From: an uncultured Spirochaetaceae bacterium
GTDB lineage: Bacteria > Spirochaetota > Spirochaetia > Sphaerochaetales > Sphaerochaetaceae
Length of the DNA: 64,000 bases
Reading direction: 5' to 3'
Assembly: GCA_944392935.1 (NCBI GenBank)
Contig: CALXYI010000031.1
Span: forward strand, 1-64,000
The position numbers and the translations under genes are program-made. Positions 40,658 through 53,897 of this stretch are shown here, one piece after another. Numbering within the stretch: the stretch's first letter is position 1; every line of letters starts with the position of its first letter. The notes under the pieces were generated by a model. The model had not been told where the DNA came from and ran no database searches. It saw nothing but the letters and a program-made list of their open reading frames with translations.

Positions 40658-41650
40658 TCATTCAGGCAGCTCGGAGGCGAGCTTTATGCCCCAGGCAGAG
40701 CGCATCGAGTCACAGATACGGAGCACTCTGAGTGTTTCCCTCCATGGCATGGCCTCAGGTTCGAGACGGCCTTGCTCTATTGCTTCAGCTGCAGCCTCGA
40801 TCTCGTATTCATAGCCATTGACCTTGTGCATTATGGGAATGGTTTCGAGAAGGACAGGATACTTGTCACCGGAATAGATGTTGATCCTCTCCGGATTGTT
40901 GACGTTGATCACCTCGATGGTGCCTTCTGTGCCGTAGATCATTCCGCGCCTGTCGGATGTGCACTGCGTGTCGGAGAAGATTGTGGCAGAGGCTCCGGAG
41001 GCGAATGTCATGCTGATGATATTCCTTATATCCACATTCCTCTCGCTCTTGACGGCAAGGCCGGAGAGTGAGGAGAGCGGATCATTGCCAGCTGCCATCA
41101 GGACGAAGTTCAGAGGGTATACTCCGACATCGAGAAGGGCGCCCCCTCCTAGCTCAGGATCCTGTATCCTTTCCTTCCAGAGGATATCGTAGCCGAGATT
41201 GGCAGTCATTGTCGTTATCTTCCCGATGCGGCCAGAGGCTATGATCTCATCGATTCTCTTACGTGCCGGCATATAGCGTGTCCAGATTGCCTCTGCGACA
41301 TAGAGATGCTTCTCGGCAGCGAGGGCGAACACCTCCTCGGCTTCCGCTGCGTTTATGCAGAAAGCCTTCTCGCATAGGATGTGCTTGCCATGGCTGAGGG
41401 CTTCCAGCATCTCGCTTTTATGGAAGGCATGGGGAGTGGCTATGTAGACAAGATCCACGTCATTGTCCTCAAAAAGCAATTCATACGAACCGTATGCCTT
41501 GCCTATCCCGAAGCGGGCGGCGAACTCCTCCGCCTTGCTGATGCTGCGGCTTGCTGCTGCCTCTATCCTTACGGTCTCCGGCATCGCATTCATCGTCTCG
41601 GCGAGTATCTCCGCGATGTGGCCGCATCCGATTATCCCTATTCTGAGCAT
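40658..41650 (-). CDS. Gfo/Idh/MocA family oxidoreductase
   Basis: An NAD(P)-dependent dehydrogenase of 330 aa. The N-terminal Rossmann loop is RIGIIGCGHIAEIL; the CEKAF segment (about 95) holds the catalytic lysine of the family, and GGGALLDVGVYPLNF (about 165-179) matches the dihydrodiol-dehydrogenase-like subgroup. The substrate is probably a sugar or cyclic diol. GGAGG lies 8-9 nt before ATG 41650. It is monocistronic, diverges from the large acidic protein gene, and ends 33 nt from the IS element. Confidence 0.9.
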   Translation of the reverse strand: MLRIGIIGCGHIAEILAETMNAMPETVRIEAAASRSISKAEEFAARFGIGKAYGSYELLFEDNDVDLVYIATPHAFHKSEMLEALSHGKHILCEKAFCINAAEAEEVFALAAEKHLYVAEAIWTRYMPARKRIDEIIASGRIGKITTMTANLGYDILWKERIQDPELGGGALLDVGVYPLNFVLMAAGNDPLSSLSGLAVKSERNVDIRNIISMTFASGASATIFSDTQCTSDRRGMIYGTEGTIEVINVNNPERINIYSGDKYPVLLETIPIMHKVNGYEYEIEAAAEAIEQGRLEPEAMPWRETLRVLRICDSMRSAWGIKLASELPE

Positions 41651-41710
41651 TGTCTTCTCCTCCTTCCCCCGATTATATCCCAACTCTGTGCAGAATCCCT
41701 GTTTTTCTTA

Positions 41711-41716
41711 TATACT
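41711..41716 (+). promoter_or_regulatory. Possible -10 box for the large acidic protein operon
   Basis: TATACT (41711-41716), a 5/6 match. The -35 region is weak (TGTGCA, 41687-41692, 18-bp spacer). A start near 41723 would leave a leader containing AGGAG (41726-41730). Confidence 0.45.
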
Positions 41717-41736
41717 CCTATGATGAGGAGATAGCT

Positions 41737-44700
41737 GTGGAGCCTCTTTTTGCAGGATTTTCCTCTCTTTCGTCCATGTCGAAGGAGAAGGCGGACAAGA
41801 ACATCCATGAAGCGCTGAATTATCTCAGGCTTGATTTCCGTAACCTTGGAGAGCTTCTGGGGCTCTACCATCCGCTGGAGGTGCTGAAGCTCGCAGCCTG
41901 GGAAGAGCGGCGGATAGTCCGTACCCGTTCCCGCGATCCTCTTGCATCTGCCTCCGGAAGGCTGCTGCCTGTACTCCTGCAGTCGATAATCCAGAGCACC
42001 TATTTCAAGGTCGAGAACGGTATCTCCTCGAACAGGAATATCAGGGAGAAGGACTGGCATAGGATACTTGGCCTTGTGGATGATGTCTCCAAGCGCCTCC
42101 TGCGCTTCATAGAATGCTATACGGTATCAGTCGTGAGGTCATGCTTCATAGCCGAGGAGGATGCAGAGCTCTACCGCGATACGCTCTTCGATGAGGTATT
42201 CCCCCCGGTTGAGGATGATGAGCGCATAAGGAAGCTGTCATACCTCCTGTATGGTGTGCTGGAAGCATCCGAAGGGGTTTCGGAGAAGCGCTTCGGTGTC
42301 CCTGCAGAGGCCCTTGTCCATGGCATATACAGCATTGCCCGGCGCGGCGTGAACGGTATAGACAAGCTGACTGATGATATCGCGATCTACAAGGCTGAGA
42401 TGGAGACGAAGATGGCCGAGAAGCGGGCAATGGATCCATCCAGAAGCATCTCCGACGATGCCATGCGCGATGAGATAGTCAAGGAGAACGGATGGAGGGA
42501 ACGTGTCGAGCGGATGGCAGGAGAGCGTGATGGCTATGATCTCTACCGCCCTGATTTCGCATCTGACCTGCCCAGCGCTTCCTATGAGGCCATGTCCGCA
42601 TATCCAGGCACGATCGATCTGGACCAGATGCTCCTCCGGGGGCTTTTCCCCGCCACTGTCTATCCCTTCCTCCATTTCGGTGATATGTACTTCTCTTTTG
42701 CCGCAAGCCATATCCCGACATATACGCTCCGCATGCTTCAGGAGCTTGCAGGGCTTACGCTCCGCTATACAGCCGCAGCGGATGCAGCCTGCCTCATGCT
42801 CTTCAGGGAAACCGATGAGGATGAGGTCTATTCATTCGACGGCAACAAGATCGATGTATCTGTCCTTTCATCCCTTACGGAGGTCAATGCATTCATCACC
42901 CCGGCTCTCTTCCAGGCACGCCTGCGGAGAAGGGATGAGGAGCGGGCCAGGAAGCCTAGGACAGGGCATAAGGGGCTCATCCTTGATCCTGATACGTTCT
43001 CGGAGCTTGAGGAAGCCGGTGACGGGATATACTCATCCTCCCTTTATGCGCTGATAAAGTCCGCTGAGGATGCCGGCAGCCGCAGGGATTTCCTACGGAC
43101 GATCTTCGGGCAGCTCGAGATGCCCGTCAAGTCGGAGTTCGATGAGATCATCGATCCGGAGGATGAGACTCCCGCCGAGATCAATGATGATGATATCCCA
43201 GACGGCACTACCGATGAATATGAGTATGATCCTCTCGATGATGATGAGAAGGAACGGGAGATAGAGGAGAAGGAGAAGGCGCTTGAGGAGGATATCCCAC
43301 CTGAGTATCCCGATTACGGGAGAAGCGCCGAGATAGAGAAGCTCTGTGATAAATATGCCCTGACGCCGGAGATCATCGAGAAGGATGCGGAGATCGAGTC
43401 CGAGATGGACGAGTATGAGCGGGAGCTCGATGATGATGACTACATCGATGAGGACTATGCTCCGGATGATGATCCCGGCTACGATGAGCCGAGGAGCGAG
43501 GATGAGGAGCTTTACGAGGAAGCCGAGAAGGAGGATGAGTACGAGGATGACAGCGATGATCCGGATCAGCTGACATTCCTTGATGAGCTTTTCTCCGATA
43601 AGGATGACGAGGAAGGCGACAAGCTCCAGGAAGAGGATTTCGTGGAGGAGGAAGAGGAGGAGTTCGAGGACGAGGAGAAGGAGGCAGAGGCTTTCGCCGT
43701 CTCATCCCGCGAGCATATCCATGTTCCTTCTGTCTATGCAGCCTCCGAGGAGGATGAGACTGATGATGCCTCTGATGACAGGAGCGATGCGGCCTTCCCT
43801 GCCCATGATGAGCCGGTACATGGCTCAGAGGCGGATGATGATACGGCAGACCGAATCGCGCTGGATGCACAGGATCCTGGGGTTCCTGCAGATGATGAGG
43901 ATATCGTTACTGATGGATCAGGACAGTCGGCAGCTGCTGTTCCTGCGGAAGATGACGGGCCGGCAGCGATTTCGCTGATGGTGCAGGAAGAAGCAGGAGG
44001 CGCCCTTGATGATTCCTCTCCGGAGAGTGAGGCGGATCATAAGAATGAAGAGCCGGATGCTGCGCCTTGTGCGTATCCATTGCCTGATGGCAGGCTCCCT
44101 GAAGAGAGCTGCGCAGAGGCGGAAGAAGCTGCGCTGGTTGCCGCTTCTGAGGAAGGCGAGGCCGGAGAGAGCACCGAGCCAGGTGATGAGGATATACAGG
44201 CTTCTGCCATAGCGCCGGAAGCATCCGCTGAAGCTGCATCTTCCTCTGATGTCCAGGATGATCATCCCGCAGAAGATGATACAGCCGGGATATGCACCGC
44301 TTCGTACGATGCTTCACATCTTCCGGAAGCTGAAGCCGAGGCTGTGGATGAAGCTTCTCCTGAAGAGCCTCTTGATGCAGACTCCAAGGCGGAGGCAATC
44401 GCAGAAGTTCCCGATTCCAGGGAAGCTGAAGCTCCGGAGGAAGATTCAGGAGCTGTCAGGCTTCCGGAGAGCGCAGGGATTCCCGCAGGGGAGACGGAGC
44501 CTGATGCGGTTCCTCCTGCCGATACCACAGGAGATCTCTTCAGCATGCTGGATGAGGATGGGGAGGAGCCTTCACCGTCAGTGCCTGATGAAGGAGATGA
44601 TGAAGCCTCCATCATGGGTGGGGCAGCCGCTGGGGAGAAGCTTCCGGCTGAAGGGAATCTTCCTGTCCATGCGGAATCCTCTGAGCCTATTCCGTCTCCA

Positions 44701-45321
44701 GAGCCGGAGGCAGCAGCAGAGGCAGCGGGAGTGGAGCAGGACGAAGAGGAAAGGGAAACTGCTGAATCGCTGATAGAGAAGGGCATAGTGCGCCCTGTCG
44801 AGCTCGCTGGCGGGGAGAAGGTCTTCGTGATGTCGAATTCATCAGAGCCGTTCCCTGAGATGATCGAAGAGGACGAGGATGAGCCTGTGATTCCGGAGCT
44901 TGATGGGATACTCGGGGAGATATCGCGCAGGATGGATCCTTCCGGTGCGTTCATGAGCTTCGTATCGTCGGCGGATGGCGAGATGCTGGATTATCTCGGC
45001 CGTGTCATCCGCTCCAGCTGGGAGCGGCAGAGAGCTGACGGCAAGGACAAGATGTTCTCTATATACGATTATTCGATTTCCGTGCTCATCGCAGCAGACA
45101 AGGTGAACGATGATCTCAGGAAGGAGGAGCTCCTGAACAATGCCGGTGCCGTCATGTATTCCAGGCACAGGAAGGAGTGGAATGCGCTCGTGCTGTCGAT
45201 CGATGATGATTTCCATATCGCGGATGCCTATGAGAGGACCATCACGCCAGCATCATTCTCCGCATCCAACTGGAAGATCTGCACGATAATCGGCGAGCAG
45301 CTCATCGCAAGGGGGAAGTGA
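41737..45321 (+). CDS. Large protein with two globular ends and a very long acidic linker, unknown function
   Basis: I do not recognise this protein. It has 1194 aa. Residues 1 to about 465 look globular and mostly helical. Residues about 466-1010 are low-complexity and highly acidic: first D/E/Y-rich, then A/E/S/P/D-rich. Residues about 1050-1194 are again globular (ELDGILGEISRR, IYDYSISVLIAADKV, NNAGAVMYSRHRKEW). No signal peptide or membrane helix. The GTG start at 41737 is chosen because AGGAG lies 6 nt upstream; the open frame continues upstream to 41650. It heads an operon with the IMPase-like and HAD-RidA genes (1-nt and 8-nt overlaps). The linker must be disordered in solution. Confidence 0.85.
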   Translation: MEPLFAGFSSLSSMSKEKADKNIHEALNYLRLDFRNLGELLGLYHPLEVLKLAAWEERRIVRTRSRDPLASASGRLLPVLLQSIIQSTYFKVENGISSNRNIREKDWHRILGLVDDVSKRLLRFIECYTVSVVRSCFIAEEDAELYRDTLFDEVFPPVEDDERIRKLSYLLYGVLEASEGVSEKRFGVPAEALVHGIYSIARRGVNGIDKLTDDIAIYKAEMETKMAEKRAMDPSRSISDDAMRDEIVKENGWRERVERMAGERDGYDLYRPDFASDLPSASYEAMSAYPGTIDLDQMLLRGLFPATVYPFLHFGDMYFSFAASHIPTYTLRMLQELAGLTLRYTAAADAACLMLFRETDEDEVYSFDGNKIDVSVLSSLTEVNAFITPALFQARLRRRDEERARKPRTGHKGLILDPDTFSELEEAGDGIYSSSLYALIKSAEDAGSRRDFLRTIFGQLEMPVKSEFDEIIDPEDETPAEINDDDIPDGTTDEYEYDPLDDDEKEREIEEKEKALEEDIPPEYPDYGRSAEIEKLCDKYALTPEIIEKDAEIESEMDEYERELDDDDYIDEDYAPDDDPGYDEPRSEDEELYEEAEKEDEYEDDSDDPDQLTFLDELFSDKDDEEGDKLQEEDFVEEEEEEFEDEEKEAEAFAVSSREHIHVPSVYAASEEDETDDASDDRSDAAFPAHDEPVHGSEADDDTADRIALDAQDPGVPADDEDIVTDGSGQSAAAVPAEDDGPAAISLMVQEEAGGALDDSSPESEADHKNEEPDAAPCAYPLPDGRLPEESCAEAEEAALVAASEEGEAGESTEPGDEDIQASAIAPEASAEAASSSDVQDDHPAEDDTAGICTASYDASHLPEAEAEAVDEASPEEPLDADSKAEAIAEVPDSREAEAPEEDSGAVRLPESAGIPAGETEPDAVPPADTTGDLFSMLDEDGEEPSPSVPDEGDDEASIMGGAAAGEKLPAEGNLPVHAESSEPIPSPEPEAAAEAAGVEQDEEERETAESLIEKGIVRPVELAGGEKVFVMSNSSEPFPEMIEEDEDEPVIPELDGILGEISRRMDPSGAFMSFVSSADGEMLDYLGRVIRSSWERQRADGKDKMFSIYDYSISVLIAADKVNDDLRKEELLNNAGAVMYSRHRKEWNALVLSIDDDFHIADAYERTITPASFSASNWKICTIIGEQLIARGK

Positions 45322-46097
45322 TGGACAGAGCCGGGCTTGCAGCAAGACTCGAAGCTGCGAAGAGGATCGCGGATGAGGCATCCGCATTCCTCCTTTCCCA
45401 TGAAAGCCTCCGGGCAGAGTATGCCGCGAAGGCTGAGAATGATTATGTCACAGCTGCCGACAGGGAGTGCGAGCGTCTCATAATATCCTCGATAGCCAGG
45501 GCCTTTCCTGATGATGCCATCTACGGGGAGGAAAGCGGCGAGAGCGGGAGCGGAAGCTGCAGGTGGATCATCGATCCCATAGACGGCACCGTTGATTTCA
45601 TGTCCTCGTTCCCCGACTATACGGTCTCCATCGCATTCGAGGATGAGGATGGGCCTGCAGTGGGCGTCGTGGCCGTTCCCCGGCAGGGGGAGGTGTTCAG
45701 CGCCATGCGCTCTTCCGGGGCATTCCTCAATGGCCGCCCGATACATACCGACGAGGCGACGCCGCTCGGGCGTGCATTGGCGATACTGGTGCCTCCCCAC
45801 CGTCACCACAGGTATCTCAGGGACTATATGATCCGCATGGAACGTTTCTACCGTACGTTCACGGATACTCGGTCCATAGGTTCGGCAGCCCTTTCGCTCT
45901 GCTATGTGGCAGCCGGAAGATGCGCGGCTTACTACGAGATATCCCTGCATCTGTATGATATCGCGGCAGGGCTGGTCATCCTCAGCGAGGCGGGAGGGAA
46001 GATGACATTCCTCGACGGCCATGGCGAGGACTGGATCGAGCTTGCTGCATCCTCGGCCTCCGCTCATGAGGCGGTACTGGAGTGCATCAATGGTTAA
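45321..46097 (+). CDS. Inositol monophosphatase family protein
   Basis: A Mg-dependent sugar/inositol phosphatase of 258 aa. Metal-binding motifs: GEES (about residue 72), WIIDPIDGTVDF (about 83-94, catalytic Asp-Pro-Ile-Asp-Gly-Thr) and a C-terminal LYDIAAG (WDxAA-like, about 213) aspartate. It may act on inositol phosphates, fructose-1,6-bisphosphate, or 3'-phosphoadenosine phosphates. The ATG overlaps the upstream stop by 1 nt (TGATG); its own stop overlaps the next start by 8 nt. Confidence 0.88.
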   Translation: MDRAGLAARLEAAKRIADEASAFLLSHESLRAEYAAKAENDYVTAADRECERLIISSIARAFPDDAIYGEESGESGSGSCRWIIDPIDGTVDFMSSFPDYTVSIAFEDEDGPAVGVVAVPRQGEVFSAMRSSGAFLNGRPIHTDEATPLGRALAILVPPHRHHRYLRDYMIRMERFYRTFTDTRSIGSAALSLCYVAAGRCAAYYEISLHLYDIAAGLVILSEAGGKMTFLDGHGEDWIELAASSASAHEAVLECING

Positions 46098-47127
46098 GGC
46101 AGTCCTTTTCGATTTCGACGGAACCCTTGCGGATTCATCCGAGGGTATCTTCCATACAGCGCTCTACACAGCACGCCGGCTTGGTGTGGAGAGGGAATAC
46201 AGCGATGAGGAGCTCAGGCGCTTCGTGGGACCGCCGCTCCGCAGATGCTTCGTCATAGCATTCGGATTCGACGAATCGCTCCTGGACGATGCCGTTGATA
46301 TCTACAGGGAGGAGTATGCGGCGCGTGGGATGCATATGATGCACCTCTATCCTGGCATGAAGGAGCTTGTGGAGGAGCTGGGAAGGCTTGGGATACGCGC
46401 AGGTGTTGCCTCATTCAAGGCTGATCCGCTGCTGCGCGGCTGCCTCGAGGGGCTGGGTGTGCTTGATCTCTTCTCGACAGTCCATGGATCCGATCTTTCC
46501 GGCAATATGACCAAAGGTGATATAATAGAGCTTGCAATCAGGGATCTCGGTGTCGAGCGCAGCGAGGTCCTGATGATAGGGGACACCGAGAATGACCGCA
46601 TCGGCGCGGAGAGCGCGGGCGTCGGCTTCCTTGGCGTGACCTATGGATTCGGCTACCGCACGGCAGCCGAGCTTGATGGATATATGTCAGCATCTTCAGC
46701 GGAGGGGATACTCCCTCTCATAATGAAGATGAATGGAGGATATATGATCGAGAAGATCGAGACAAAGGCGGCACCTGCCGCAATCGGGCCGTACAGCCAG
46801 GCTGTAAAGGCAAATGGAATGGTTTTCGCATCGGGCCAGATCCCCATCGATCCGGCAACCGGAGCAGTTGTAGAGGGAAGCGCTGCCGATCAGGCAAAGC
46901 AGGTGTTCGCCAATGTGAAGGCCGTGCTTGCCGCAGCAGGCACTGATATGACCAAGGTCGTGAAGGCTACCGTATTCCTCGCTGATATGGCTGATTTCGG
47001 ATCCGTCAATGAAGTCTATGCTGACGCATTCAGGGATTCTGCCGTCCTTCCTGCGCGTTCCGCAGTGGCCGTGAAGACGCTGCCCAAGAACGTGCAGGTC
47101 GAGGTAGAGGTCATCGCGCTGGTATGA
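46090..47127 (+). CDS. HAD phosphatase-RidA (enamine/imine deaminase) fusion
   Basis: One open frame of 345 aa. Residues 1 to about 210 are a phosphoglycolate-phosphatase-like HAD hydrolase: LFDFDGTLADS (nucleophile Asp), VASFKAD, and MIGDTENDRIGAE. Residues about 219-345 are a complete RidA/YjgF protein: KAAPAAIGPYSQAVKANG, FASGQIPIDP, and the substrate arginine in LPARSAVAVKTLP. RidA clears reactive imines made by PLP enzymes. An internal ATG at 46744 with GGAGG (46735-46739) could also give free RidA. The start at 46090 overlaps the IMPase-like gene by 8 nt. No stop separates the domains. Confidence 0.87.
   Translation: MVKAVLFDFDGTLADSSEGIFHTALYTARRLGVEREYSDEELRRFVGPPLRRCFVIAFGFDESLLDDAVDIYREEYAARGMHMMHLYPGMKELVEELGRLGIRAGVASFKADPLLRGCLEGLGVLDLFSTVHGSDLSGNMTKGDIIELAIRDLGVERSEVLMIGDTENDRIGAESAGVGFLGVTYGFGYRTAAELDGYMSASSAEGILPLIMKMNGGYMIEKIETKAAPAAIGPYSQAVKANGMVFASGQIPIDPATGAVVEGSAADQAKQVFANVKAVLAAAGTDMTKVVKATVFLADMADFGSVNEVYADAFRDSAVLPARSAVAVKTLPKNVQVEVEVIALV
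46735..46746 (+). promoter_or_regulatory. Internal ribosome binding site and start for free RidA
   Basis: GGAGG (46735-46739), 4 nt, ATG 46744, exactly where RidA homology begins. This predicts that the fused RidA domain is also made as a separate 127-aa protein. Confidence 0.5.
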
Positions 47128-47135
47128 TCTGCCAT

Positions 47136-47170
47136 GGAAAGCCGGGAATCCGGCTTTCCTTATGGCTGTT
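47136..47170 (+). terminator. Terminator of the acidic protein-IMPase-HAD/RidA operon
   Basis: A perfect 10-bp stem, GGAAAGCCGG (47136-47145) with CCGGCTTTCC (47150-47159), and a 4-nt GAAT loop, 9 nt after the stop codon. The following sequence (TTATGGCTGTTTT) is only moderately T-rich. Confidence 0.7.
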
Positions 47171-47214
47171 TTCCGCTATTTCTGATAGCATTCACGGGTA
47201 ATCGCGAGGACAGA

Positions 47215-47919
47215 GTGGAAAACGGAGATAGAAAGGACTGGATAAAGCCGGTAGGCAAGTCTTCCTTGTCCAAGATAGTCATGGATTCGGTCCGGAACGG
47301 AATCATAGGCGGGGAGGTGGCTCCCGGTGATTTCCTTCCATCCGAGAGCGAGCTTGCCTCCCGCTTCGGTGTCGGCAAGTCCAGCGTGCGCGAAGCCATG
47401 AAGATGCTTGAGGCCCAGGGCTACATCGAGGTCTGCAAGGGCAATGGCTATAAGGTGCGTACCGCAGTCGATCCCGAGATAATAAACCCGTTCGTCTTCC
47501 AGCTCGTCCTCCAGAGCAGCAAGAGCCGCGATGATCTGCTGGAGTTCCGAGGAGCCATTGAGAGAGCGGCATCGCTGCTGGCTCTCGAGAAGGCAACCGG
47601 TGAGGATATAAGGGCGATCAGGGAGAACATAGATGCCACTGTATCCCATGCGGCTGAAGGGAAGAGCACCCTCGATGATGATATCGCATTCCATCATCTG
47701 ATCTACCAGAGCACGCATAATCCCTATCTCGTCATAATAGGGAAGGCCATAATGGAGCTCTTCAGGGAGTCCCTGAGGAAATCGAATACGCAGCATCAGG
47801 ATTTCGTGATATCCGATCATGAGGCGATATACAGGGCAATCGTCGGCAATGACAGGAGCGCTGTCATTGCTGCAGTCGATTCATCGCTTGAGAGCTGGTA
47901 CAGGCTCTCCCTTTCATAG
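47215..47919 (+). CDS. GntR family regulator, FadR/FCD subfamily
   Basis: A 234-aa repressor: winged helix at residues 10-85 (SLSKIVMDSVRNGIIGGE, then LPSESELASRFGVGKSSVREAMKML) and a helical FCD domain at 95-225 (DIAFHHLIYQSTHN contains ligand/metal histidines). GTG 47215 is chosen because GAGG lies 5 nt upstream and homology starts just after; the frame is open further up through a terminator hairpin. It sits 130 nt upstream of the KARI-like gene and probably controls the palindromic operator there. Confidence 0.88.
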   Translation: MENGDRKDWIKPVGKSSLSKIVMDSVRNGIIGGEVAPGDFLPSESELASRFGVGKSSVREAMKMLEAQGYIEVCKGNGYKVRTAVDPEIINPFVFQLVLQSSKSRDDLLEFRGAIERAASLLALEKATGEDIRAIRENIDATVSHAAEGKSTLDDDIAFHHLIYQSTHNPYLVIIGKAIMELFRESLRKSNTQHQDFVISDHEAIYRAIVGNDRSAVIAAVDSSLESWYRLSLS

Positions 47920-47971: not shown

Positions 47972-47999
47972 TTGACAGGTCGGAAACCCGATTTATGAT
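47972..47999 (+). promoter_or_regulatory. Predicted promoter of the KARI-like/GntP operon
   Basis: A perfect TTGACA (47972-47977), 16 bp, TATGAT (47994-47999). The start site falls near 48006, at the first base of a palindrome. Confidence 0.78.
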
Positions 48000-48004
48000 T
48001 AAGT

Positions 48005-48034
48005 CATCAGATATCTGATATCTCATATCTGATG
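48005..48034 (+). promoter_or_regulatory. Nested palindromic operator over the KARI-like operon start site
   Basis: A perfect 14-bp palindrome ATCAGATATCTGAT (48006-48019) sits inside a second perfect inverted repeat, CATCAGATAT (48005-48014) with ATATCTGATG (48025-48034). It overlaps the transcription start and ends 5 nt before the ribosome binding site. The adjacent GntR/FCD protein is the likely binder. Confidence 0.72.
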
Positions 48035-48049
48035 AAAAAGGAGGAAATC

Positions 48050-49039
48050 ATGGCTACGAAAATCTATTACGACGACGATGCGGATCTCTCGCTTGTGCAG
48101 GACAAGGTCGTCGCTATTCTCGGGTATGGCAATCAGGGAAGGGCCCAGGCCCTGAACATGAGGGATTCCGGCCTCAAGGAGATAATCGTAGGCTCAAGGC
48201 ACGATGAGTCATACGATAAGGCCAATGAGGACGGCTTCATGGTCTATTCCATCGCAGAGGCCAGCGCCAAGGCTGATATCATCTTCATGCTGCTTCCCGA
48301 TGAGGTCGCTCCGGAGATCTACGAGAAGGACATCGCTCCGAACCTCAAGCCCGGTACGGTCGTCAACTTCGCATCCGCATACAACATCACGTTCAACAGG
48401 ATCAAGCCGGCTGCGGACCTCGATGTCGTCATGGCAGCTCCGAGGATGATTGGCGAAGGCGTCAGGGAGCTTTACGAGAAGGGCGAAGGCGCTCCGGCTT
48501 TCGTGGGCGTCCATCAGGATTACTCAGGAAAGGCCCTTGAGTATGGCAAGGCCCTCTGCAAGGCGATAGGGGCGACAAGGAAGGGTGCCATCGAAGTCAG
48601 CTTCCTCGATGAGACATGCCTTGACCTCATGGCAGAGCAGGGTACATGGCCGATCATCTACAACGTATTCGTCGAGGCATTCAAGCTTGAGGTCGAGATG
48701 GGGCATCCGGAGGAGGCGGTCCTCATGGAGATGTATCTCTCGAAGGAGCCAGCCGTCATGATGGAGAAGGCCGCTGAGGTCGGATTCTTCAAGCAGCTTC
48801 CATTCCATTCCCATACAAGCCAGTACGGCCAGCTCATCGGCTTCAATGCTGTCGACAGGAAGGCCATCAGGGATTTCCTGAAGAACCGCTATGACAGGAT
48901 AAGGAACGGCGAGTTCGCCAAGGAGTGGGATGAGGAGCAGAAGGTCGACCATCTCAAGACATTCGAGCGCCTCAGGGAAGAGGCATTCGAGTGCGATTTC
49001 TCGAAGGCTGAGGCCGAGCTCAAGAGCCGCCTCAAGTGA
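48050..49039 (+). CDS. Ketol-acid reductoisomerase-like protein, diverged
   Basis: A 329-aa class I KARI fold. The Rossmann loop ILGYGNQGRAQALNMRDSG (about 23-41) and the metal-ligand stretch DETCLDLMAEQ (Asp192, Glu196) are kept. Other expected catalytic sites differ: the conserved FAHGF segment reads FASAYN, the second glutamate of the FECLHEL motif aligns with Ser231 in MEMYLSKEP, and the substrate serine region reads SHTSQYG. It may therefore act on a different substrate. AAGGAGG lies just before ATG 48050; the in-frame codon at 48032 is in the operator. No other branched-chain synthesis genes are nearby; it sits with a GntP permease. Confidence 0.82.
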   Translation: MATKIYYDDDADLSLVQDKVVAILGYGNQGRAQALNMRDSGLKEIIVGSRHDESYDKANEDGFMVYSIAEASAKADIIFMLLPDEVAPEIYEKDIAPNLKPGTVVNFASAYNITFNRIKPAADLDVVMAAPRMIGEGVRELYEKGEGAPAFVGVHQDYSGKALEYGKALCKAIGATRKGAIEVSFLDETCLDLMAEQGTWPIIYNVFVEAFKLEVEMGHPEEAVLMEMYLSKEPAVMMEKAAEVGFFKQLPFHSHTSQYGQLIGFNAVDRKAIRDFLKNRYDRIRNGEFAKEWDEEQKVDHLKTFERLREEAFECDFSKAEAELKSRLK

Positions 49040-49063: not shown

Positions 49064-50392
49064 ATGATCATCTTTCTTCATCTCATCATCGCCATTGCGA
49101 TAATCCTGGTCTGCATACTGGCCCTGAAGCTCAATACGGCTATCGCGCTTGTGCTCGGAAGCCTCTACATGGGCGTGGCCTGCGGCCTTGATCCGATAAC
49201 GTCAGTCAACACCGTCGCGTCCGGGTTCGGCAACCTGATGACCAGCCTCGGTCTTTCCGTAGGCTTCGGTGTCATCCTCGGCCAGCTCCTCTCTGATTCC
49301 GGAGCTGCCAAGAAGATAGCCCGCACCATGGTCCACGTGACGTCCTCGAAGTATGCCATGTACGCGCTCGGCGCCACTGCGTTCCTGCTCTCCGTACCGG
49401 TGTTCTACGATGTCACGTTCGTCATCCTCGTTCCTCTTGCCATAGCCATGTCAAGGGAGACGAAGAAGCCGATCCACTATACAGTCGGTGCGATCATCAT
49501 CGGTGCAGGGGCTGCCCATACGCTTGTCCCGCCGACACCGAATCCGCTTGCTGCGGCTGAGATCCTCCATTTCGATCTCGGCATCATGGTGGGCGTAGGC
49601 CTTATTGTCGGAGGCATCTCGGCTTTCCTTGCCATGAAGCTCTACTTCCTCATCATGGACAAGGGCTTCTGGAACAAGGCAACCGATGAGACTGGTGTCG
49701 AGGTATATGAGGAGGCAGAGAACTCCGATGAGAAGACTCCTTCATTCATCGCATCCCTCTTCCCCGTTATCCTTCCTGTGATCCTGATCCTCATCGGAAC
49801 GATCTGGGGTGCAGTGAGCTCCGATGTGCCGATGATAATCAACTTCATCGCCAACAAGAACATCGCGCTTCTCCTTGGTGTCATCGCAGCCTATGCCATA
49901 AGCTCTGCGACAATGACCAAGGACGAGATGGACAAGTCGGCCACAGAGGCTCTGAAGAGCTGCGGCATAGTGCTCCTCATAACCGGAGCCGGCGGTTCGT
50001 TCGGTGCCATCATCAGCGCAACCGGAATGGCGGATTTCATCGCGGAGTCGATCTCGAACATCTCCGCTTCCCCGATCGTGGCGCTCCTCTTCGCGTTCTT
50101 CGTCGCTGCGGTCTTCCGCATCGCGCTCGGATCCGGTACGGTTGCTTCCATCACGACCATGACGATCATGTCATCGGTTGCCGGAACGATGGGTATCCAT
50201 CCTGTATGGATCGCTATCGCATGCCTCTCCGGATCCCTCAGCTGCGGGCATGTCAACGACAGCGGCTTCTGGGTATCCACGAATCTCTCAGGATTCACCA
50301 TCAAGGGAGGACTCAAGACATATACCCTTGGCAATGCATTCACTGCTGTGTTCGCCATGGTATTCGCAATGATAGGATCGTTCATCTTCTGA
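49064..50392 (+). CDS. GntP family permease
   Basis: A proton symporter of the gluconate permease family: 442 aa, about 12 hydrophobic segments. Signature stretches: GFGNLMTSLGLSVGFGVILGQLLSDSGAAKKIA in pieces (about 47-80), PVFYDVTFVILVPLA (about 111), HTLVPPTPNPLAAAE (about 153), and the C-terminal GHVNDSGFW (about 392). Substrates of the family include gluconate, other sugar acids and hydroxy acids. AAGGAGG lies 8 nt before ATG 49064. It is co-transcribed with the KARI-like gene (24-nt gap) and followed by a strong terminator. Confidence 0.92.
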   Translation: MIIFLHLIIAIAIILVCILALKLNTAIALVLGSLYMGVACGLDPITSVNTVASGFGNLMTSLGLSVGFGVILGQLLSDSGAAKKIARTMVHVTSSKYAMYALGATAFLLSVPVFYDVTFVILVPLAIAMSRETKKPIHYTVGAIIIGAGAAHTLVPPTPNPLAAAEILHFDLGIMVGVGLIVGGISAFLAMKLYFLIMDKGFWNKATDETGVEVYEEAENSDEKTPSFIASLFPVILPVILILIGTIWGAVSSDVPMIINFIANKNIALLLGVIAAYAISSATMTKDEMDKSATEALKSCGIVLLITGAGGSFGAIISATGMADFIAESISNISASPIVALLFAFFVAAVFRIALGSGTVASITTMTIMSSVAGTMGIHPVWIAIACLSGSLSCGHVNDSGFWVSTNLSGFTIKGGLKTYTLGNAFTAVFAMVFAMIGSFIF

Positions 50393-50411: not shown

Positions 50412-50451
50412 GGCTGCCTGCGGCTTCGGCTGGAGGCAGCCTTGTCTTTTT
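50412..50451 (+). terminator. Rho-independent terminator of the KARI-like/GntP operon
   Basis: GGCTGCCT (50412-50419) pairs with AGGCAGCC (50434-50441), followed directly by TTGTCTTTTT. It is 20 nt after the GntP stop. Confidence 0.88.
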
Positions 50452-50570: not shown

Positions 50571-50900
50571 ATGGCATCCGATGCCGTGGCTGACAGGCTT
50601 GTTTCCCCGGTGCATATCACTGAGTGGGCTCCATGTACCGAAGCCGATAACCATAAGCATGATGCGACCGAGATGATGTTCTGCCTCTCCGGACAGGGGA
50701 AGGCAAGCGTTGATGGCGTTGAGGATGATTCCCGCCCCGATTCCATGATCGCGGCGCTTCCCGGGCAGATGCATCAGATACGGAATACAGGAAGCAGGCT
50801 TCTCAGGGCCCTGTGCGTATTCTCCCCTCATGTCTCCGCCGCAGATCTGAAGGAGAGGGCAGAGCGGACAGTGGCTGCCAGCAGGGAAGGGGAGCGATGA
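50571..50900 (+). CDS. Small cupin-domain protein
   Basis: A single-domain cupin of 109 aa. Motif 1 is visible as HKHDATEMMFCLSGQG (two His, one Glu, glycines; about 26-42) and motif 2 as PGQMHQIRNTG (about 64-74), so a metal site with three His and one Glu is plausible. The ligand or reaction is unknown; many such proteins are isomerases or sensors. No Shine-Dalgarno or convincing -10 box precedes ATG 50571, and an in-frame stop at 50487 limits extension. It is monocistronic, convergent with efp. Confidence 0.75.
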   Translation: MASDAVADRLVSPVHITEWAPCTEADNHKHDATEMMFCLSGQGKASVDGVEDDSRPDSMIAALPGQMHQIRNTGSRLLRALCVFSPHVSAADLKERAERTVAASREGER

Positions 50901-50957: not shown

Positions 50958-51521
50958 TTAGCTGTTGACCCTCTCGAGATACTCCTTGGTCTCTGTATTG
51001 ACCCTGATCTTCTCACCCTGCTTGATGAAGATAGGAACCCTTACGCGGAGGCCTGTCTCCGTCGTGACATACTTCGTGGCGCCCTGTACCGTATCGCCCT
51101 TCACGGCTTCCTCTGCCTCTGCGACAGTGAAGACGATCTTCGACGGGATCACGATATCGAGCACCTGATCCTCCCAGAATGTAGCCCTGTATGTCTCGCC
51201 TTCCTTCATGAAGTACTCATAGTCTGTGAAGGACTTCATCGGGACATCGATCTGGTCGAATGTCTCGGCATTCTGGAAGTAGAAGTTCTCGCCATCGTTG
51301 TAGAGGTACTGGAGATCCCTGTCCTCGACTGTGATATCCTCTGCGTTATCCTGGCTCTTCATCGTCTCTGAGAGAACCTGTCCTGTCGATGGGCTCTTGA
51401 GCTTAAGGCGCACGAAAGCCGAACCCTTTCCCGGGTTCACGAATTCGCGTTCAATGCACACAAACGGCTGTCCCTTGATCAGGAGAGCTGTTCCCTTGTC
51501 GATCTGACCAGCTTTAATCAT
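50958..51521 (-). CDS. efp: Elongation factor P
   Basis: Translation factor that relieves stalling at polyproline. 187 aa, three beta-barrel domains (KOW-like 1-65, OB 68-130, C-terminal 132-187). The tip of domain I reads NPGKGSAF, keeping the lysine that is modified in E. coli (PGKG, about residue 34). The modifying enzyme gene epmA lies immediately upstream (15-nt gap), so the pathway is lysyl-type. GAGG lies about 8 nt before the ATG. Confidence 0.96.
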   Translation of the reverse strand: MIKAGQIDKGTALLIKGQPFVCIEREFVNPGKGSAFVRLKLKSPSTGQVLSETMKSQDNAEDITVEDRDLQYLYNDGENFYFQNAETFDQIDVPMKSFTDYEYFMKEGETYRATFWEDQVLDIVIPSKIVFTVAEAEEAVKGDTVQGATKYVTTETGLRVRVPIFIKQGEKIRVNTETKEYLERVNS

Positions 51522-51536
51522 AGTATCTACCTCAAT

Positions 51537-52538
51537 TTATTCAGACTCTTTCGGTTTTCCGGACGTAAGCATATCAGAAAGGGGGAATAAAAGTAAAGGT
51601 GCTATGCAATTAAGTCCGAGATGCGCTGCCAGCAGCCTGTCCAGTCCCATCGCTGCCCCCGATGACTGCGGGATAGCAAGCTGCGGGAATGACGGATCGG
51701 CTGGGGGGATCACGTCCCCCGTTCCCTTCCTTTCATCGCACAGCCTCCGCTCCTCTTCCTCGAAATAGCTCCTGGTCTCCTCCCTGTCCGTCTCCTCATC
51801 ATAGCAGTTCGCGATCTCGATTCCGCCGATGTACATCTCCCATCGCTTCCTGCAGGGCCGTCCGTCGGCTTTCTTCGCAAGGCACCTTATCCTGTCTGGA
51901 TAATCAGTGAGGTATACCCTCCTGTCCTTCGGGAGGGAAGGCTCGGTATATGTGAGGAAGATCCTGTTGAACGTATCATCCCAGCTTTCATCCTCTCCAG
52001 GCTCCAGCGACAGCCTCCTGGCCTCTGACCGCAGATACGATATGTCCTCTGCCTTGTCCATGTCGACGCCGGCATACCGCAGCATCGCCTCGTGCATCGT
52101 GATCACCAGCGGCCTGCTGTCCATCCATCCAGCCCTTATCCCCTTCAGCGCTGTTGCTGCTATCATGTCCTCCGTGATGGCGATCGAGTCCCTGTCATCG
52201 GCATCCACGGTATAGTATTCGAGCATCGTGAACTCCGGGTTGTGCACATCGCCAAGCTGCTCGGAATTGCGGAAGCACTGCGATATCTGGAATATGGAGC
52301 CTGAGCCTGCAGCCAGGAGTTTCTTCATGAATATCTCCGGGGATGGGATGAGGTAGAGGTCAAGATTGCCGGTGAATTCGTTCCTGAACTCAGTGCCGAA
52401 TACCTTTATGGTCGGCTCCGGGATGAGATAGGGCGACAGTGCCGGAGTAGAGACCTCAAGATAGCCGTGCGATATGAAATACTGCCTTATGTTCATCAGA
52501 AGCTCTGACCGCTTCCTTGCTGCCTGGAAATCGTACAT
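51537..52538 (-). CDS. epmA: EF-P (R)-beta-lysine ligase
   Basis: A truncated class II lysyl-tRNA synthetase paralogue (333 aa) that lacks the anticodon-binding domain and attaches beta-lysine or lysine to EF-P. Motifs: motif 2-like FQISQCFRNSEQLGDVHNPEFTMLEYY (pieces, about 95-120), GGIEIANCYDEETD (about 255), and motif 3 GAAMGLDRLLAAHLG (about 305). ATG 52538 is preferred over 52595: it gives the family N-terminus and lies 6 nt after a TACAAT -10 box (leaderless). It forms an operon with efp and shares a divergent promoter region with mnmE. The aminomutase epmB is not in this window. Confidence 0.93.
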   Translation of the reverse strand: MYDFQAARKRSELLMNIRQYFISHGYLEVSTPALSPYLIPEPTIKVFGTEFRNEFTGNLDLYLIPSPEIFMKKLLAAGSGSIFQISQCFRNSEQLGDVHNPEFTMLEYYTVDADDRDSIAITEDMIAATALKGIRAGWMDSRPLVITMHEAMLRYAGVDMDKAEDISYLRSEARRLSLEPGEDESWDDTFNRIFLTYTEPSLPKDRRVYLTDYPDRIRCLAKKADGRPCRKRWEMYIGGIEIANCYDEETDREETRSYFEEEERRLCDERKGTGDVIPPADPSFPQLAIPQSSGAAMGLDRLLAAHLGLNCIAPLLLFPLSDMLTSGKPKESE

Positions 52539-52544
52539 GCCGCG

Positions 52545-52573
52545 ATTGTATTGCCCCTGCGGGTCAGTTGCAA
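52545..52573 (-). promoter_or_regulatory. Predicted leaderless promoter of epmA-efp
   Basis: On the minus strand TTGCAA (52573-52568), 17 bp, TACAAT (52550-52545), then 6 nt to ATG 52538. It overlaps, in opposite orientation, the mnmE promoter. Confidence 0.75.
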
Positions 52574-52579
52574 TACTAT
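52551..52579 (+). promoter_or_regulatory. Predicted leaderless promoter of mnmE
   Basis: TTGCCC (52551-52556), 17 bp, TACTAT (52574-52579), then 7 nt to ATG 52587. Both promoters occupy the same 48-nt gap, so RNA polymerase could occupy only one at a time. Confidence 0.72.
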
Positions 52580-52586
52580 CCACGGT

Positions 52587-53897
52587 ATGGCACATTACGC
52601 AACCGGTGAGCCGATATATGCGCTCGCGACACCATATTCGCCTTCGGCACTTGCTGTCATAAGGGCATCCGGGGATGAGGCCATCTCCCTTCTCGCCCCT
52701 TATTTCTCTTCTCCGATCAGCCCCTCATTGTCAGGGAGGGCGGTGCATGGATATGTGCATGACGGCAGCGGAAGGCGCATAGACGAGGTCATGGCCATCA
52801 TCTATTCCAAGGGGCATGGGTACACATCGGAAGAGGCCTTCGAGATAATGTGCCATGGTTCCCTGCCTGTCATAAGGGCGATCTCCTCGCTGCTGGAGGA
52901 TGCCGGTTTCAGGGAAGCGGAGAGAGGGGAGTTCACATACAGGGCCTTCATGCATGGCCGCATGGATCTCACTGAGGCTGAGGCTGTGGAGGAGATAGTG
53001 AAGGCCAGGACCAGCCGTGCGGGCTCTGATGCCCTTTCCCGCCTTGCCGGATCGATATACCGGGAAGCGGAGCGCATGAAGGAATCGGTGCTTGATATCC
53101 TTGCCTCCCTTGAGGTCCAGCTTGATTACGGCGAGGACGAGATTCCCGAGGACTGGGTGTTTCCCGAGGAGGAGGTTTCCCGGATCATCGGACGCCTCCG
53201 GGCAATCGCAGCTACATTCTCCTCATCACGCCTCTACAGCGAAGGCGCGCTGGTCGTCATCGCAGGACGCACCAATGCAGGCAAGAGCTCGCTGTACAAT
53301 GCTCTTCTCAAGGAGAACCGGGCGATAGTCTCTTCCGAGGAAGGAACGACACGTGATTATATCGAAGCGGATGCAGTCATCGCCGGCATCCCCGTGAGGC
53401 TCTTCGATACCGCAGGGCTGAGGGAATCGGAGGATGCTGTGGAGCAGGAAGGGATAAGGCGCACGGAATCCCTGATGGACAAGGCGGATCTGATCGTCTA
53501 TGTCGTCGATCCCTCCTCGGATGATGCGCCTCCGCAGTATGAGAGGGTGCTGTGCGTCATCTCCAAGCGGGATGTCTCCGCCCTCGATGCGCCGCTCTCG
53601 TTCTCCTCTGTCACAGGTGAAGGGCTGGCGGATGTGATCGATGCGATCGCCTCGCGGCTCTCAGCTTCAGCCTCGGCTCCTTCCGATGTGCCCAGGATCG
53701 ACTCGGAGAGGCAGAAGGAGAAGCTCGAGGAGGCAGCGGCAGCGCTTGAGGAGGCCCGCCTTTCATCTTCTGCCGGTTACGATATAATAGCGCTGTATCT
53801 CCAGAGCGCGCTCTCTTCGCTGGGCGAGCTGACGGGAGAGATCACAGGGGAGGATGTGCTTGACCGCCTTTTCTCCTCATTCTGCCTAGGGAAATGA
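52587..53897 (+). CDS. mnmE: tRNA modification GTPase MnmE
   Basis: GTPase that, with MnmG, installs the cmnm5 group at wobble uridine of tRNA. 436 aa: N-terminal tetrahydrofolate-binding domain (1-115), helical domain, and a G domain inserted about 215-365 with AGRTNAGKSSLYNALL (G1), EGTTRDYI (G2) and DTAGLRESED (G3). The C-terminus ends FCLGK, matching the C-(I/L/V)-G-K tail. ATG 52587 gives the canonical start; the frame opens at TTG 52551 inside the promoter. Leaderless by prediction. Next gene mnmG is 1 nt away. Confidence 0.97.
   Translation: MAHYATGEPIYALATPYSPSALAVIRASGDEAISLLAPYFSSPISPSLSGRAVHGYVHDGSGRRIDEVMAIIYSKGHGYTSEEAFEIMCHGSLPVIRAISSLLEDAGFREAERGEFTYRAFMHGRMDLTEAEAVEEIVKARTSRAGSDALSRLAGSIYREAERMKESVLDILASLEVQLDYGEDEIPEDWVFPEEEVSRIIGRLRAIAATFSSSRLYSEGALVVIAGRTNAGKSSLYNALLKENRAIVSSEEGTTRDYIEADAVIAGIPVRLFDTAGLRESEDAVEQEGIRRTESLMDKADLIVYVVDPSSDDAPPQYERVLCVISKRDVSALDAPLSFSSVTGEGLADVIDAIASRLSASASAPSDVPRIDSERQKEKLEEAAAALEEARLSSSAGYDIIALYLQSALSSLGELTGEITGEDVLDRLFSSFCLGK

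Follow-up and report, generated by a model that had tools for sequence, protein, structure and literature searches.

A KARI-like clade with changed active-site residues and a probable role in sugar-acid catabolism

What does a homologue of ketol-acid reductoisomerase (KARI) do beside a regulator and a permease? The question arises in a 64,000-nucleotide stretch of DNA (hereafter the window) on contig C31 of G000, a 1.8-Mb spirochaete draft genome that is 94% complete. Profile searches bear out the setting given in a preliminary description of the sequence: GntR/FCD regulator and GntP permease genes stand beside the KARI-like gene, and no ilv genes lie nearby (Table 1). That description had proposed a paralogue acting on an imported hydroxy or sugar acid and not on acetolactate. 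The paralogy and the catabolic setting hold up, but the residues alone are no argument against acetolactate, because Sso-KARI of Saccharolobus solfataricus, which has the same Ser, Arg and E-x3-S-x-E, has been solved in structures that contain Mg2+, the KARI inhibitor CPD and either NADH or NADPH. We consider it moderately probable that the gene, under GntR repression, encodes an NAD-linked oxidoreductase with a KARI fold that belongs to a catabolic clade and acts on an imported polyhydroxy acid. The enzyme is probably there to degrade or interconvert a sugar acid taken up by the cell, and not to make branched-chain amino acids.

The open reading frame at 48032–49039 encodes a KARI-family protein of 335 amino acids, in which Pfam KARI_N (PF07991, 205 bits) and KARI_C (PF01450, 73 bits) both score over their cut-offs. 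The TIGR00465 (ilvC) cut-off of 226 is also exceeded, at 238.5; the stricter NCBIfam KARI model PRK05479 scores 272 against a cut-off of 336. In structure comparison, an AlphaFold model (pLDDT 90) matches solved class I KARIs with Z scores of about 27–34. Translation probably starts at 48050, since a ribosome-binding site precedes that position and the predicted operator overlies the upstream ATG at 48032. Comparison with spirochaete relatives indicates strong purifying selection on the gene (dN 0.035–0.06, with synonymous sites near saturation).

Residues are numbered here from 48032, and those of the preliminary description from 48050, so that its first metal ligands, 192 and 196, are D198 and E202. 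Both are present and conserved in the clade by alignment, as it had stated; the corresponding D191 and E195 of class I KARI are Mg2+ ligands (PMC5940873). The dinucleotide-binding GYG motif is present, and E194, E233 and S260 are also kept. The loss of the FAHGF histidine is confirmed: the motif reads FASAYN, with S115 in place of the catalytic His, and this position is Ser in 29 of 31 clade members and His only in two haloarchaeal ones. A further change, absent from the earlier account, affects the catalytic Lys of APKGPG, which is Arg in all 31 (R138, in APRMIG). The second acidic ligand had been aligned with a serine, and the E-x3-S reading stands: E-x3-E (E227/E231 in class I KARI) is replaced by E233-M-Y-L-S237-K-E239. 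However, E233 is kept and a Glu stands two residues beyond S237, with S237 and E239 both conserved in the clade. Judged from the alignment, the second Glu may be either lost or shifted by two residues, as E239 after a two-residue insertion; the model has a helix break at 237–238. To equate loss of this Glu with loss of the second Mg2+ would be unsafe: Mg2+ is present in structures of Sso-KARI, which has this pattern too.

The substrate-serine region was likewise read correctly as SHTSQYG, but the substrate Ser itself, S260, is retained. It lies in H259-S260-H-T-S263-Q264-Y-G, where, compared with the canonical S-x-T-A-E-Y-G, I/C is replaced by H259, A by S263 and E by Q264. Positions 259 and 263, which we take to line the KARI substrate pocket, thus change from non-polar to polar across the clade, the change one would expect if the substrate carries more hydroxyl groups. 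The claim that did not survive concerns the NADP loop, described as intact. In the clade rows inspected it is of a non-canonical type, [S/N]55-x-x-D58, spaced as Asn48 and Asp51 of BurG, which exclude the NADP phosphate (PMC9359912). Because the loop is analogous to these NADP-excluding residues, NAD is the likely cofactor.

These residues mark a separate clade. In a maximum-likelihood tree, 31 clade sequences, Sso-KARI (6jcv) among them, split from 13 canonical KARIs with support of 100/100. About 16 differences are fixed between the two groups, several of them in the active site: H to S115, F to Y117, H to T120, K to R138, G to M139, P to I140, deletion of one Cys, G to P207, the insertion with S237, M to Q255, A to S263, E to Q264, and H259 where canonical sequences have mainly Ile. 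R138, M139, Y117, S237, Q255 and S263 occur in all 31 members (S115, as noted, in 29), and none of the seven in any canonical KARI (0/13). This clade-wide pattern, together with the purifying selection, argues that the altered residues are not chance differences. On whether true KARIs conserve them, the canonical sequences give a clear no, and Sso-KARI, within the clade, does have them.

The clade spans Spirochaetota, Clostridia/Bacillota, haloarchaea, Sulfitobacter and S. solfataricus, and its distribution is patchy. In 84,980 species genomes we found 17 relatives at 60–95% identity, and the gene occurs in 5 of 299 Lachnospiraceae, 3 of 296 Spirochaetota (canonical matches at 40–42% excluded) and 3 of 391 Clostridia genomes. 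Weak matches of 40–42% from other spirochaetes (L071–L073) have canonical residues and were dropped from the clade. The Haladaptatus, Halomarina and Sulfitobacter members come from plasmid records, and many hosts are gut or rumen metagenome-assembled genomes (MAGs) or isolates. Our literature search found no paper describing this clade. Going by the sequences, it is a so far unnoticed branch of bacterial and archaeal KARI-like proteins within a known family, with a changed residue set and a putative substrate.

The KARI-like gene is an extra copy, since a second, canonical ilvC lies on contig C11 of the same genome. There it forms part of a complete ilv/leu operon in the order ilvN, ilvC, leuA, further leu genes with leuB among them, ilvD and ilvB; profiles identify ilvN and ilvD, and leuA, leuB and ilvB were assigned by visual reading of the sequence. 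In G013 (the same genome as G076), a close relative of the same genus that is 99% complete, the KARI-like gene is the sole KARI-family gene; neither a canonical ilvC nor ilvN was found in that genome. The gene for its single IlvD-family protein is clustered with those for an SDR, a KDG-type kinase and a KDPG aldolase. G013 is a probable branched-chain amino-acid auxotroph, and no other observation speaks as strongly against a role of the KARI-like gene in branched-chain amino-acid synthesis.

The KARI-like and GntP genes belong to one transcription unit, which should end at the hairpin, before a cupin gene at 50571. We rejected the cupin as a member of the unit; the hairpin intervenes, and the gene is absent there in close relatives. 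Upstream, the GntR/FCD frame probably starts some 80 bases later than predicted, where its relatives start. The full operator stretch, TCATCAGATATCTGATATCTCATATCTGATGA, lies between promoter and ribosome-binding site, over the transcription start region, and therefore fits repression. Its motif, ATCAGATRTCTGAT, recurs in the promoter-to-ribosome-binding-site interval of 15 of 16 GntR-linked loci, from Spirochaetota and Clostridia, and at none of five unlinked loci. If up to one mismatch is allowed, the 14-bp core occurs just once in the whole G000 genome (reversed-pattern control, 0). In a regulon search of ten genomes, other operator sites were mostly weaker and revealed no further pathway gene; those that we opened lay mostly inside coding regions or were unrelated.

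Table 1 Features of the KARI-like locus in the window
Feature	Position	Strand	Evidence
GntR/FCD regulator gene	47134–47919	+	Pfam GntR 64 bits, FCD 65 bits; orthologue adjoins 16 KARI-like loci
Sigma-70-type promoter, TTGACA-16-TATGAT	47972–47999	+	11/12 matches; similar hexamers 5′ of relatives
Predicted operator	48004–48035	+	14-bp palindrome ATCAGATATCTGAT (48006–48019) and more half-sites every 7 bp
Ribosome-binding site, AAGGAGG	48038–48044	+	Sequence, 5′ of start 48050
KARI-like oxidoreductase gene	48050–49039	+	Pfam and NCBIfam profiles, tree, alignment, model; ORF tool start 48032
GntP-family permease gene	49064–50392	+	Pfam GntP_permease 307 bits; 24-bp gap with ribosome-binding site after KARI-like gene
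Intrinsic-terminator-like hairpin	50428–50451	+	Such sites: 4 found, 2.4 expected in shuffles

Other features of the window deserve record. The frame at 46021–47127 combines a HAD-type phosphatase domain (residues 28–206) with a complete RidA domain (244–367), and may be a HAD–RidA fusion or reflect a lost stop in the draft genome. At 50958–52595, on the minus strand, EF-P lies beside an EpmA/GenX-like lysyl ligase that scores below the EpmA cut-off, an order kept in L004. A 1,223-residue protein encoded on the plus strand at 41650–45321 contains a very long low-complexity stretch rich in Asp and Glu. On the same contig, 4–7 kb past the end of the window and about 20 kb from the KARI-like gene, a tetronate catabolism cluster (C31:67794–70640, L128) encodes a 3-oxo-tetronate kinase (over cut-off), a 3-oxo-tetronate-4-phosphate decarboxylase-like protein and a D-2-hydroxyacid dehydrogenase.

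Across the clade, the neighbourhoods share a common theme, import and degradation of sugar or hydroxy acids, and no ilv genes adjoin the KARI-like gene in those that we read. The clade is not always linked to GntP, as had been asked at the outset: GntR/FCD, KARI-like gene and GntP occur together at 12 of about 28 loci (the window, L003–L009, L011, L012, L069 and L070, the last two with a gluconate-5-dehydrogenase-type SDR in addition), and the rest have TRAP, TctABC or ABC transporters or none. At four loci (L010, L068, L077 and L078) GntR and the KARI-like gene lack GntP, and an imported substrate is therefore not evident everywhere. L066 holds TctABC, a galactonate-dehydratase relative and an Fe-ADH; L067 a TRAP transporter, IclR, a 2-hydroxyacid dehydrogenase, HpaI aldolase, a nickel-pincer isomerase, a PF01261 TIM-barrel protein and DhaK/L; L052 a TRAP transporter, GntR, two aldehyde dehydrogenases and glycerate kinase; and L053 and L054 a sugar ABC transporter, several sugar-acid dehydratases, SDRs and an aldolase. 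Pyruvate:ferredoxin oxidoreductase is encoded beside the gene in separate lineages (upstream in L015 and L016, beyond GntR near L006), which may hint at a 2-keto acid as product. In L017–L019 (L017:4654–10004, L018:2496–9726) the gene sits in an anaerobic module: directly 5′ of it are genes for a glycyl radical enzyme, which scores under every NCBIfam cut-off, and for the activase of that enzyme, and 3′ of it is a gene for a DMSO/selenate-reductase-type subunit. No single pathway is common to the loci, and the candidate downstream partners DhaK, DUF1537 kinase and true OiaK show no consistent co-occurrence. The DUF1537 kinase was set aside as not diagnostic because it is also found in genomes of the same genus that lack the KARI-like gene.

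We infer from these observations that the GntR/FCD repressor, on an operator between the −10 box and the ribosome-binding site, would keep the KARI-like/GntP unit off until released, presumably by the sugar or hydroxy acid itself. GntP would import that acid, and the KARI-like enzyme, using NAD(H) and Mg2+, would oxidise (or reduce) it at C2, with NAD as preferred cofactor and a polyhydroxylated compound as both substrate and effector. As to chemistry, we tentatively suggest a plain C2 hydroxy/keto-acid redox step, which is somewhat likelier than the full reverse-KARI oxidation and 1,2-shift on a branched dihydroxy acid, itself unlikely in our estimate. We lean this way because KARIs reduce many 2-keto acids, because their isomerase and reductase are separable and because mutation of conserved polar residues in E. 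coli KARI can reportedly abolish isomerase activity and leave the reductase (Tyagi, 2005). Various 2-keto acids are reduced by KARIs and hydroxypyruvate by BurG (PMC5940873, PMC9359912), and KARI isomerase and reductase can be measured separately (PMC5940873, PMC4353338). Isomerisation may also survive, since the Sso-KARI structures with metal, cofactor and inhibitor carry the same replacements.

Several points speak against the NAD-linked catabolic enzyme. GntP is missing at some GntR-linked loci, and no one downstream pathway is shared. Sso-KARI, itself a clade member, is regarded as a KARI and was solved inhibitor-bound; members of the clade may turn over acetolactate. The window gene could then encode a second, NADH-using KARI isoenzyme for acetolactate or acetohydroxybutyrate, with its own regulation and a permease for something else. 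The shared fold, the TIGR00465 score, the retention of D198, E202, E233, S260 and E194, and Sso-KARI, for which a 2019 J Am Chem Soc study is said to have found KARI activity, all favour such an isoenzyme. We nonetheless judge it improbable: the genome already has a canonical ilv/leu operon, in G013 the gene is kept although ilvC and ilvN are missing, its neighbours are sugar-acid genes and never ilv genes, and the stricter KARI cut-off is missed.

An NAD+-dependent oxidoisomerase would instead run the exact KARI reaction backwards on a hydroxylated substrate: a branched dihydroxy acid would be oxidised at C2 and undergo a 1,2-shift. The natural candidate is D-apionate, which is dihydroxyisovalerate with both methyls hydroxylated and would give an acetolactate-like 3-oxo acid able to decarboxylate. 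The polar pocket residues suit it, as do the many gut or rumen hosts, and in L067 the TRAP transporter, TIM barrel and DhaK/DhaL are compatible with decarboxylation to erythrulose followed by phosphorylation. We nevertheless think it unlikely, as true OiaK (3-oxo-isoapionate kinase), the pathway partner of the D-apionate oxidoisomerase ApnO, is over the NF042436 cut-off in none of 25 clade genomes, DhaK is not universal, the L067 TIM barrel is closer to D-psicose epimerase, and we found no mention of a KARI-like family in the papers on apionate or apiose catabolism that we consulted. Slightly more doubtful still is its extended form, in which the activity, with D-apionate or another branched sugar acid as substrate, is a second invention convergent with ApnO, the GntR–operator/GntP module has spread horizontally and Sso-KARI is mis-assigned. 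The KARI fold is also capable of redox-neutral chemistry with transient NAD use, as BurG illustrates, and an epimerisation or elimination of the imported acid would fit the nickel-pincer isomerase that adjoins the gene in L067 and the glycyl radical enzymes of L017–L019. This we hold to be very unlikely; the gonydiol/malleicyprol-type (BurG) cluster is absent from the neighbourhoods read, which hold transport and sugar-acid genes only.

A catabolic role for the clade bears on annotation. The database records that we read label its proteins ilvC, so that automatic annotation assigns catabolic genes a branched-chain amino-acid role, and prototrophy predictions could therefore mislead: G013 would look ilvC-positive. 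Because the structurally characterised Sso-KARI lies inside the clade, what it does in the cell calls for a second look. The family is small, includes proteins from cultured hosts, among them Faecalicatena orotica and Mediterraneibacter massiliensis, and offers solved structures as templates; the regulator–operator pair is clear, and the ligand of GntR would reveal the substrate of the enzyme.

Compared with class I KARI (IlvC, EC 1.1.1.86), the window protein shares the fold, GYG, the Mg2+ ligands D198/E202 and E233 and the substrate Ser S260. It differs in His to Ser, Lys to Arg, E-x3-E to E-x3-S-x-E, GP to MI and an NAD-type cofactor loop, and its gene, unlike ilvC, sits in a catabolic operon and is redundant with a true ilvC. 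BurG, a cyclopropanol synthase (PMC9359912), is likewise a KARI fold recruited to another acid, with an N48/D51-type NAD loop, but it belongs to a natural-product cluster, performs other chemistry and shows about 36% identity, as ordinary KARIs do. One paper names SacsKARI as a structurally characterised KARI. Closest in signature is Sso-KARI ('putative ketol-acid reductoisomerase 2'; PDB 6jcv, 6jcz, 6jd1, 6jd2), a member of the same clade with the motifs FASGYN, APRMVG, EFYASGE, HSTTSQYG and GNVKD and 44% identity over the structurally aligned part; unlike the window protein, it is archaeal, sits on a long branch and has been studied as a KARI. ApnO comes from a protein family different from KARI, and if the branched-acid reading is right, the KARI-like enzyme would catalyse the same type of reaction.
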